A DNA stretch of 64,000 bases. Source: Arenimonas donghaensis DSM 18148 = HO3-R19 (lineage in GTDB: Bacteria > Pseudomonadota > Gammaproteobacteria > Xanthomonadales > Xanthomonadaceae). The DNA is taken from contig NZ_AVCJ01000050.1 of NCBI RefSeq assembly GCF_000743535.1, positions 62,001-126,000 of the forward strand. The letters are read 5' to 3'. Under the pieces are notes generated by a model that saw nothing but the letters and a program-made list of their open reading frames with translations, was not told the origin of the DNA and did no database searches. Both the position numbers and the translations under genes were made by a program. Within the stretch, counting starts at the first letter, position 1. Every line of letters starts with the position of its first letter. This document shows, one piece after another, positions 55,433 through 57,941 of the stretch.

Positions 55433-55837
55433 TCAGCGGTTGATGATGCGCGGGTCGCAGTCGCGGGTTTCGCCGGTGCTGCGGTTTTCGACGATGACCG
55501 AGTACTTCACGTCGGCCGGTCCGCTGTTGCGGTTGAAGATGTTGGCCACGCTTGCCTGGCCGCCGGCGGTGTAGGTCATCTGGTCCTGGCCTTCCCCGGA
55601 AAAGATGATGTCGCTGATGCCGTAATCGCGGCCGCCGCCCAGGCGCAGCTGGATCTTCTTGTTGCCGGTGTTGGCGGCCACCTCCACGTTGCCGGCCCCG
55701 TCGGAGCCCCCGGTGAAGACGCAGGTTTCGGGGTCGAGTTCGACCTTGAAGTCGGTGCCGCCCTGGCCCTGGGCGAGGGCGACCGGGGCGAGCAGGGCCA
55801 GCAGCAGGAGTGCGGGAACCAGGTCAGAACGTCGCAT
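55433..55837 (-). CDS. Small secreted protein of unknown function
   Basis: 134 aa. A signal peptide (LLLLALLAPVALA-QGQGG) leads to a beta-rich mature part with two Cys (in ETCVF and RDCDP) that may form a disulfide. I recognise no family. A GGAGGA site precedes the ATG by about 7 nt. It overlaps the end of the TIR-TPR gene by 14 nt, so the two are translated together. Convergent with asnB. Confidence 0.75.
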   Translation of the reverse strand: MRRSDLVPALLLLALLAPVALAQGQGGTDFKVELDPETCVFTGGSDGAGNVEVAANTGNKKIQLRLGGGRDYGISDIIFSGEGQDQMTYTAGGQASVANIFNRNSGPADVKYSVIVENRSTGETRDCDPRIINR

Positions 55838-57941
55838 GGGCAGGTCCTCCAGTCGTTTTTTCGTCCGGCGTGAAAGCGCCGGTGAGGGTGTAGGCCGGTT
55901 CCATGCGCGGGTCGCGATACCCGGCCTGGTCCAGCACCTCCTGCAACGCGACAAGCCGCCCGGACTGGCCAAGGTTGATGGCCAGCAGTTTGCGCACCGG
56001 GTGGAACTCGAAGGTGCCCTGGGGCTGCCGGTCGAGCAGGGCGGCGGCATCTGCCCAGGTGGCGTGCGCCGCCGCCGGGTCGCCGGCGGCGGCCTGCGCG
56101 GTGCCCAGGACCTCGGCGGCGCGGGCCAGCTGCGCCAGCCACTGGGCCGAATAATCCGTTGCGGTCACCAGGTCCGACATCCGCCGGTGGGCCTGCCCGG
56201 CCGCCGCCAGGGCACCGGCGGTGTCGCCGGTGGCCAGGGCCCGCAGCGCCCGCAGCCGCAGGCCGTGGGCCAGGTCCACCACCGCCCAGGCGTTGCTGGG
56301 GTCCTGCGCGGCCAGTGTTTCCAGGCCCTCCAGCAGGGCTTGCAGATCCGCCGCCTGCGCCGGCGTCCATCGTGCCGGGGCGATGATGCCCAGCTGGGTG
56401 AGCCGGGCGCGATGGTCGCTGCGCGACCAGGAGGCGTTTTGCGGGTCGAGGGCGGTCAGGCGGGCATACATTTCCACGCCCCGCTGGATGTGGCCGGTGG
56501 CGGCGGCGACGCGGCCCAGTTCCAGTTCGGCATTGGCCTGGAAGATCAGGTTGCGGCCCAGCAGGTCGCTGGCGTGCACGTTGTCGCCGCGTTCGTGCAG
56601 GGGCTGCAGCAGCCGCGTCACCTCGGCAAAGCCGTCCCCGCCACCGGCCAGGTCGCCGTCGTCGATGCGGGTGGAACCGATCCAGGACCAGGTTTCGGCC
56701 AGTGCAATGGTCAGCCCGGGGTCGTCGGGCGACTGCGCCAGGGCCTGCTCGGTGATTTCCCGGCACAGCCCGAAGTAGGCCAATGCCGTCTTGGCATCGC
56801 CGCGCGCGCGCGCCAGGCTGCCGAGGTTGGAATAGGCGTAGGACAGTTCCAGTTCGTAGTCGGCGTCGCCCGGCTCGCGGTGGTGCAGCACAAGGCTGTG
56901 GCGCAGGTAGTTGTGCATCGCGGCTTCGGCCTTGTCGAGCTGGCCGCGCTCCCAGGCCACGTAGCCGACCCAGAATTCGGCCTGGCCCAGCTCGAACAGG
57001 TAGTCGTTGTTGCCGGGTTCGGACTCGTGCAGCTGCCGCGCCTGCGCCAGGGCCTGCTCGAACGATTCCAGCGCCGCCTCGAGCTTGCCCTGGTTGAAGC
57101 GCACGTCGCCGACCTGCTTGAACGCCACGGCGCGCGAGAGCATCTCGCCGGGCGTGCCACGCTCGCCCAGGGTGCCGAAATAGCCCATCACTTCGTCGCC
57201 GACCGAATCGAGCAGTTCCAGCCTGCCGATGGGTTCGAGCTTCTGCCGCAGGTCGCCGAGCATGAATCCGACCAGCGCTTCGGCCTGCAGGCGCCTGAGC
57301 TCCGATTCCTGCCTGGACTTGAACGCATACACCGCCAGGCCCACCGTCACCGCCGCCACCACCAGCGACAGCGCGGCGATGCTGGCCCAGAAGCGTGCCT
57401 GGCGCTGCGCGTCGCGCCGCTTGAGTTCGTCCACGCCGACGTCGAGCAGGCCTGCGGCGATCTTGAGCATGGCGTTGCGCTGGCCATCGCCGGTGGCCGT
57501 GGCGTCGGCCGCCAGCGGTTCGTGCAGGGGGGTGCCGTCGTCATCGCGCAGCAGGGCCGGCGGGAAGGCGCAATCGGCCGACCCGGGGTCGGGCTGGCCC
57601 GCGACCAGGTAGCAAAAAATCCGGTGGCCGCGGCCGGAGCGGCGGAAATGGCGGATTTCCTCGTTGACCCAGCGCGAGCCCGCCGAGGCCGGCGAACACA
57701 CCACCACCAGCGCGTCGGAATCGTCCATCGCGTGGCGGATCGAATCGGACAGGTCGTGGGCCGATGCCAGTTCGTCCCGGTCGCGGAAGACGGGATAGAG
57801 CCGCGCAGGCAATTCGGGCCGGCTGGCGCGCAGCGTGGCGGGCGGCCGATAGCCTTCCAGGGCCCGCTGCAGCCAGCGCGCGGCGGGTTCATCGGCATGG
57901 CTGTAGCTGATGAAGGCGCGATAGCGCCGTGCAGGCGTCAT
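55824..57941 (-). CDS. TIR domain, transmembrane, TPR-repeat protein
   Basis: 705 aa. N-terminal TIR domain: YRAFISYSHAD at residues 7-17, BB-loop-like FRDRDELASAHDLSDSI, and SRWVNEEIRHF holding the conserved Glu (94/95) used by TIR NAD+ hydrolases. One membrane segment at about 184-207, then a juxtamembrane FMLGDLRQKLEPIGRLELLD motif and a long series of TPR-like helical pairs. The layout suggests cytoplasmic TIR and periplasmic repeats. An ATG 13 codons upstream is possible. Role could be signalling or defence; neither is shown. Confidence 0.82.
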   Translation of the reverse strand: MTPARRYRAFISYSHADEPAARWLQRALEGYRPPATLRASRPELPARLYPVFRDRDELASAHDLSDSIRHAMDDSDALVVVCSPASAGSRWVNEEIRHFRRSGRGHRIFCYLVAGQPDPGSADCAFPPALLRDDDGTPLHEPLAADATATGDGQRNAMLKIAAGLLDVGVDELKRRDAQRQARFWASIAALSLVVAAVTVGLAVYAFKSRQESELRRLQAEALVGFMLGDLRQKLEPIGRLELLDSVGDEVMGYFGTLGERGTPGEMLSRAVAFKQVGDVRFNQGKLEAALESFEQALAQARQLHESEPGNNDYLFELGQAEFWVGYVAWERGQLDKAEAAMHNYLRHSLVLHHREPGDADYELELSYAYSNLGSLARARGDAKTALAYFGLCREITEQALAQSPDDPGLTIALAETWSWIGSTRIDDGDLAGGGDGFAEVTRLLQPLHERGDNVHASDLLGRNLIFQANAELELGRVAAATGHIQRGVEMYARLTALDPQNASWSRSDHRARLTQLGIIAPARWTPAQAADLQALLEGLETLAAQDPSNAWAVVDLAHGLRLRALRALATGDTAGALAAAGQAHRRMSDLVTATDYSAQWLAQLARAAEVLGTAQAAAGDPAAAHATWADAAALLDRQPQGTFEFHPVRKLLAINLGQSGRLVALQEVLDQAGYRDPRMEPAYTLTGAFTPDEKTTGGPAHATF

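Follow-up and report, generated by a model that had tools for sequence, protein, structure and literature searches.

The stretch of DNA analysed here, referred to as the window, comprises 64,000 nucleotides (nt) of contig NZ_AVCJ01000050.1 of Arenimonas donghaensis DSM 18148 = HO3-R19 (assembly GCF_000743535.1, positions 62,001 to 126,000). It carries on its reverse strand two overlapping genes, one for P0001, in which a TIR domain is joined through a single transmembrane segment (TM) to tetratricopeptide repeats (TPR), and one for P0002, a small secreted protein called the partner below. The two genes constitute a real unit, and in the relatives read the small gene goes with the TPR part of the large one. 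The features of the locus are collected in Table 1.

Table 1. Features of the P0001-P0002 locus, in positions of the window (ORF, open reading frame; aa, amino acids; pLDDT, predicted local distance difference test)
Feature	Position	Strand	Basis
TIR-TM-TPR protein P0001, 705 aa	55824..57941	(-)	ORF and translation, Pfam
TIR domain, residues 10-114	57600..57914	(-)	Pfam TIR_2 E 3.5e-13 (over cut-off), ThsB_TIR E 1.1e-9
Glu95 of W-x3-E, position of the TIR catalytic Glu	57657..57659	(-)	kept in 76/76 relatives
Single TM, residues 184-207	57321..57392	(-)	hydropathy; one TM in 76/76 relatives; positive-inside bias in 68
Conserved segment right behind the TM, residues 216-254	57180..57296	(-)	many invariant columns, 10 proteins
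TPR region, residues ~271-690 (approximate ends), predicted periplasmic	55872..57131	(-)	Pfam TPR matches, profile
Predicted DUF1888-fold partner P0002, 134 aa, secreted	55433..55837	(-)	translation; AlphaFold model pLDDT 84.6; top fold matches SO1698
14-nt overlap of the P0001 and P0002 genes	55824..55837	(-)	coordinates
Sec-type signal peptide, P0002 residues 1-22	55772..55837	(-)	by inspection; similar N-termini in aligned copies
C-terminal tail D128-P129-R-I-I-N133-R134 of P0002	55436..55456	(-)	alignment and genome pattern search

In Pfam the TIR domain of P0001 also matches ThsB_TIR with 39 bits, the cut-off being 21.2. A glutamate has a catalytic part in TIR domains, and its position in P0001 is that of Glu95, four residues behind Trp91, Glu94 being the preceding residue; P0001 is in this respect a TIR protein of the NAD+-cleaving kind, with an activity predicted from its sequence. 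The comparison was extended to 76 named TIR-TM-TPR loci, which came from a scan independent of the partner, and from which two others (L098 and L100, of 78 in total) were left out because ORF calling gave no complete TIR-TPR gene for them. All 76 relatives have the Glu of W-x3-E and exactly one TM behind the TIR domain. The net charge on the TIR flank of this TM is higher than on the other side in 68 of them, equal in seven and lower in one; the more positive TIR-side flank in 68 of 76 favours a topology with the TIR inside and the TPR outside. The Pfam TPR matches of P0001 fall between residues 271 and 418, TPR_8 being barely above its cut-off and the remaining TPR models below theirs, and by sequence the sole match of P0001 in PDB is one designed TPR. 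Its closest named relatives are from Arenimonas.

P0002 has two Cys (39 and 127) and no lipobox Cys. No Pfam, NCBIfam or PADLOC family matches it at E ≤ 1, phmmer of P0002 in PDB gave no result, tblastn against plasmids gave nine records of which none reached 80% coverage, and a scan for promoters and terminators found none. The Cys39 pattern is present in six of six signal-peptide copies of the Arenimonas partner and in none of the 49 other rows (counted by eye, the script having misplaced the signal-peptide copy of L026), a comparison of little weight, as the six copies are one clade and at least three of the other 49 have a genomic signal peptide. An initial annotation of this DNA had described a TIR domain with a conserved Glu, a single TM with an outward TPR half, and a secreted protein of 134 aa whose gene overlaps by 14 nt, and in all of this it agrees with the present results; its remark that the partner is not recognised has to be corrected, since P0002 is recognisable by its predicted fold.

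By this fold P0002 appears to be distantly related to DUF1888/SO1698. The profile of 25 diverse partners (A3) has SO1698 of Shewanella oneidensis as its top match in PDB (E 0.008), with an alignment extending through the terminal DPQIINRP, while the profile of the first, narrower partner set (A1) missed it. The six best Foldseek hits of the AlphaFold model of P0002 are all SO1698 chains (E 1.8e-5), and VIA-align gives a Z of 11.3 over 104 residues with 3nji, compared with 9.8 for MakD and 9.3 for PixA. A viral fold library yielded one match at E ≤ 0.001, the others being mostly generic sandwiches. The predicted model thus shows the beta-sandwich fold of SO1698, and P0002 also has the C-terminal Asp-Pro followed by xIxN of the DP-EP proteins (D128-P129-R-I-I-N133); it lies below detection by their Pfam model PF08985, to which a relative (L067) scores 19.3 bits against a cut-off of 25. 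In a class-wide draw no genome of 274 was matched by PF08985 above the cut-off, two being weak. SO1698 is said, in work of Osipiuk from 2012, to cut itself at Asp116-Pro117, linking Lys98 to Asp116, and PDB titles call it an aspartic peptidase. In the remote alignment P0002 has Lys111 at the Lys98 position and Asn50 at that of Asp37. MakD (6tct) and PixA (4lzk) have the P0002 fold according to Foldseek and VIA-align, and this fold may serve more widely, since MakD sits in a toxin operon.

A partner of a proteobacterial metagenome-assembled genome (L165) belongs to a family with further members in Rhodanobacter and Dyella, ending mostly in NPxIKN, which escaped the P0002-based profiles. The three best fold hits of its model are also SO1698. 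Its best model has a pLDDT of 84.4 (two of the five models dropped to 46), and its tail looks unstructured, the final residues being near pLDDT 50 or lower; in the P0002 model the tail forms one of the strands of the sandwich.

Among 27 genomes of the genus, P0001 is matched in ten (in G021 by the TPR stretch only) and P0002 in six, in every case immediately behind a TIR-TPR gene. The pair is located between asnB and a DUF924 gene both in the window genome and in G017; in G007 it adjoins asnB, DUF924 not being found there. In the pair-less genomes G005 and G012 about 43 and 4 nt separate the ends of the asnB and DUF924 matches, indicating that the two genes are gained or lost as one cassette; in some other pair-less genomes the gap is about 0.7-1.2 kb. 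At the family level P0002 matches are present in 17 of 198 genomes (E ≤ 0.01), with a TPR-profile gene alongside in 16 of the 17 loci, and the remaining hit, L050, looks unrelated, without a partner or TPR profile match. At the order level the partner profile matched 36 of 299 genomes, and 28 of the 30 loci read have an upstream TPR-type gene when longer stretches are included (it is fragmented in L079). The two without one are L069/L246 and L075/L251, whose partner-like genes (L246:1500-1880 and L251:1230-1691) end in CDPQI(T/I)N, with no TPR-profile gene in the stretch.

The aligned partners terminate in (C)DPxIxN, a tail in which D, P and N are invariant across 63 aligned partners, some of these picked by the tail itself. 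The strict motif DPx[IV]xN is found downstream in 42 of the 76 named TIR-TPR loci and in 4 of 2717 control ORFs. A relaxed tail is present in 62 of the 76 loci, or in 68 of 203 downstream ORFs (about two expected) compared with 23 of 2297 control ORFs, the strict count being the cleaner one because the relaxed motif was broadened after inspection of those very loci. The conservation of the two-gene unit, which the initial annotation had proposed to look for, is evident from this co-occurrence, so that the lack of co-occurrence it had named as a refutation does not apply. Among the 63 ORFs of the relaxed set with the form xPxIxN, Pro is preceded by Asp in 47, by Asn in ten and by another residue in six, and the tail lies at most six residues from the C-terminus in 62. 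A search of the 2.98-Mb window genome at the DNA level for DPx[IVM]xN, one further residue and a TAA or TGA stop has a single match, at P0002, and the control has none. A chance operon was rejected on the tail statistics and on the empty site between asnB and DUF924.

The partner follows the TPR region and not the TIR domain, as DP-EP genes also trail TPR-profile genes, there with a wHTH-nSTAND-like cytoplasmic part, and partner genes elsewhere trail TPR-profile genes with a kinase part; the profile of the P0001 TPR region is common to the TPR regions of both these types of protein. A PF08985 search across the order that includes a Glaciecola relative matched 35 of 394 genomes, 34 of them over the cut-off, and in each of the 30 loci returned the partner is preceded by a gene that matches the TIR-TPR profile. 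When 20 of these were re-read at length, the TPR profile matched in 20 and the TIR profile in none, the latter within the stretch read, several of the large ORFs being cut at the N-terminus. The one protein of this set tested by Pfam (L201) is Trans_reg_C-nSTAND1-TPR. Among 20 stretches from the order-level set, the large gene encodes a TIR-TPR protein in three, a TPR-profile kinase in two (both kinase by Pfam), and in 13 a TPR-profile protein of more than 1000 aa with a start resembling a winged helix-turn-helix (wHTH) and nSTAND (one by Pfam, the others by profile, length and sequence); it is absent in two.

In a phylum-wide draw, with a match in 31 of 398 genomes and 30 stretches read, the tail was found after 7 of 11 genes with TIR and TPR, 6 of 13 other TPR genes and none of six TPR-less TIR genes. 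Pooled, this gives 13 of 24 TPR-bearing genes versus 0 of 6 TPR-less TIR genes (Fisher p 0.024), five of the six cases after other TPR genes resembling genomes of the PF08985 set and so not being independent. At 25 loci the partner distances correlate with those of the TPR once the TIR is removed (partial r 0.61, permutation P 0.0005), and far less with those of the TIR once the TPR is removed (partial r 0.11, P 0.07); after trimming of the TPR windows to the length of the TIR the values are 0.54-0.59 for the TPR versus 0.18-0.22 for the TIR, and shared ancestry is not fully excluded by any of these correlations.

A third gene, encoding a protein of about 570 aa, goes with the TIR and was seen only with the TIR form among the loci read. 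Its product begins with the pattern GxTGHRxL...GxDxLxAxxAL, which is similar to SLOG domains, and it is called SLOG-SLATT here. It is present in 42 of the 78 named TIR loci (29 downstream on the same strand) versus none of 20 nSTAND-type loci, stretches which contain little upstream sequence; counted alike, with a start at most 2.0 kb downstream, it is present in 23 of 66 TIR loci versus 0 of 20 (p 0.001). In the genus it is found in eight of nine genomes with a TIR-TPR match covering the TIR, and in five of the 18 others (p 0.0044). The window genome has at G000:C1 (L025:4489-8902) a SLOG-SLATT gene directly upstream of a paralogous TIR-TPR gene, whose product is 40% identical to P0001 and whose partner is leaderless and ends in DPPIVNRPPA. 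G007 and G017, whose cassettes are the closest to that of the window, have the SLOG-SLATT gene on a separate contig, where the surrounding 1.5 kb contain no match to the TIR, the TPR or the partner.

Several known systems resemble the locus in part. The DUF1888/DP-EP proteins share with P0002 the fold, the place of Asp-Pro and, as far as the remote alignment shows, possibly the Lys at the Lys98 position, and DP-EP relatives share its position after a TPR-profile gene (the loci covered do not include that of SO1698 itself); P0002 differs in being below Pfam detection, secreted and, in that alignment, apparently without an Asp37 equivalent, and its TPR neighbour bears a TIR instead of wHTH-nSTAND. 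ToxR/ToxS, VtrA/VtrC and CadC also combine a cytoplasmic output, one TM and a periplasmic sensor, the first two with a small downstream partner gene; unlike these, P0001 has a TPR sensor and a TIR output, and its partner has an unrelated fold, so that this is an analogy only. With Thoeris the locus has in common the ThsB-like Pfam match of the TIR and, in its relatives, the neighbouring SLOG-like membrane protein, but the TIR of P0001 is fused to TM-TPR and accompanied by a DUF1888-fold partner. It falls far below the curated ThcB4 model of NCBIfam (NF058526, 28.1 bits versus 220) and gives a weak match to ThsB of PADLOC (21.6 bits), and four proteins found next to relatives are of the SLOG-SLATT kind, not Thoeris effectors. 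PADLOC found no SIR2-SLOG, Macro-TM or protease effector among seven neighbours in the window, which look like housekeeping genes and gave one weak match of little significance. In the text on TIR/SLOG-SLATT neighbourhoods in PMC9503650, SLATT is given as a predicted effector under the control of ADP-ribose derivatives, and TIR products are said to be recognised by the SLOG domain of ThsA; the predicted neighbourhoods share the TIR and a SLATT-type two-TM effector with the loci read here, and the same text mentions neither a TM-TPR receptor nor a DUF1888 partner. In the open-access literature searched no work linking DUF1888 to TIR or TPR proteins was found.

The locus can be considered a modular single-pass receptor, in which a sensor made of TPR and partner would control the TIR, with the SLOG-SLATT effector in cis or in trans. 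The outward TPR half, together with the DUF1888-fold partner and its (D)PxIxN tail, would be the sensing side. A ligand, damage, acidification or cleavage at Asp128-Pro129 might change the TPR-partner complex and thereby the way in which the inner TIR half assembles, and this half would then cleave NAD+ to an ADP-ribose-type signal; the signal would be read by the SLOG-SLATT effector with its two TMs, situated beside the TIR in many relatives and elsewhere in the window genome, and membrane permeability would change as a result. That partner and TPR work together is quite probable, the complete chain has slightly less than an even chance, and a role in defence is no more than plausible.

A number of observations weigh against this chain. 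No signal peptide is present in 58 of 68 tail-bearing partner ORFs (10 have one by inspection, the script having misjudged four, two falsely called and two missed), so a periplasmic meeting of partner and TPR is not general, and a secreted ligand as a general rule was rejected. The proposal of the initial annotation that something is sensed outside the cytoplasm is supported by the topology statistics and by the secretion of P0002 here, and is weakened as regards a simple ligand. Leaderless partners would either get out of the cell through lysis or a different route, or have their role on the cytoplasmic side of the membrane. A tail-bearing ORF is missing from 14 of the 76 named loci, and in the phylum draw the tail is absent after four of 11 TIR+TPR and seven of 13 other TPR genes. 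Asp stands at the Asp37 position in only 10 of 63 partners and P0002 has Asn50 there, so its cleavage may be absent; as 16 of the 63 tails of the form xPxIxN also lack Asp before Pro, the idea that the partner must cleave itself was rejected. Possible shared ancestry behind the distance correlations belongs here too. As for the third gene, its SLOG assignment is a sequence pattern, its DUF4231 and SLATT matches are near or under the cut-off in the four proteins tested, five genomes of the genus have it without this TIR-TPR gene while G010 shows the reverse, and none lies alongside the pair among the window neighbours read, where PADLOC gave a single weak match.

Signalling instead of defence is a rather doubtful alternative, according to which these proteins would be one-component envelope sensors like ToxR or CadC, the wHTH form regulating genes, the kinase form phosphorylating, and the TIR making a mild NAD-derived messenger on envelope stress or a change of pH. 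It would agree with the occurrence of the partner with both Trans_reg_C-nSTAND1-TM-TPR and kinase-TM-TPR proteins, with the nearly empty PADLOC result for the seven neighbours, and with SO1698, which a passage of PMC11655445 describes as a self-cleaving endopeptidase working at low pH; it agrees less well with the patchy, cassette-like presence of the pair and with the SLOG-SLATT gene beside the TIR, which resembles the antiviral effector arrangements predicted in the above text of PMC9503650. An operon with overlapping genes and the many leaderless partners could also suggest an antitoxin or immunity function of the small protein, which would keep the TIR inactive. This is improbable, as the partner is kept with kinase and wHTH-nSTAND outputs, was not seen after any of the six TPR-less TIR genes and has distances that track the TPR rather than the TIR, and P0002 is secreted; with the partner staying where the TIR is replaced and unseen where the TPR is absent, it is not tied to the toxic domain, and an antitoxin of the TIR was rejected.

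It is very improbable that the partner is an independent self-cleaving or inclusion-forming protein that happens to lie in the operon, its tail being just the last structural strand. The tail strand within the sandwich of the P0002 model, the fold common to MakD and PixA, for which no TIR link is known, and the two tail-bearing genes without an adjoining TPR-profile gene (L246 and L251) could be read in this way. The linkage in 28 of 30 order-level, 16 of 17 family-level and 30 of 30 DP-EP loci contradicts it, as does the tail being kept where the L165 model shows disorder.

Within the reading as a modular receptor, a solved but functionally orphan self-cleaving family gains a genetic partner and a testable role, and a receptor chassis is suggested in which one sensor-partner pair is wired to immune (TIR), transcriptional (wHTH-nSTAND) or kinase outputs. 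If it is true, trans-membrane TIR signalling in bacteria with a proteolysis-capable partner as its input would be directly testable. A more specific version, which is unlikely as a whole, holds that the TPR of receptors with interchangeable outputs (TIR, wHTH-nSTAND, kinase) recognises the PxIxN tail of the partner, that Asp-Pro autocleavage, where present, arms or releases this tail, that SO1698 is the ligand of an innate-immune-like receptor, and that the TIR branch signals to a SLOG-SLATT pore. In that case leaderless partners might signal cell lysis or leakage from kin, and secreted ones damage in the periplasm.

Partner genes are present in more than one copy at several loci. In the Arenimonas genomes G022 and G025 there are operons in which a secreted copy comes after a leaderless one, and in the Shewanella-type loci L173, L185, L188 and L195 a second DP-EP-like copy of 156-256 aa, to which reading assigns a signal peptide, lies behind a leaderless copy. 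Three tandem divergent partner genes follow one TPR-type gene in L049 (G168), L042 (G065) and L044 (G100). In G020 (L035:2182-6770) a gene that starts like SIR2 and ends like a TIR domain, both by reading, is situated beside an nSTAND1-TM-TPR-like gene (nSTAND1 by Pfam) and a TolB-like gene, and G021 (L036) has a TPR part and a TolB-like gene on a short contig.

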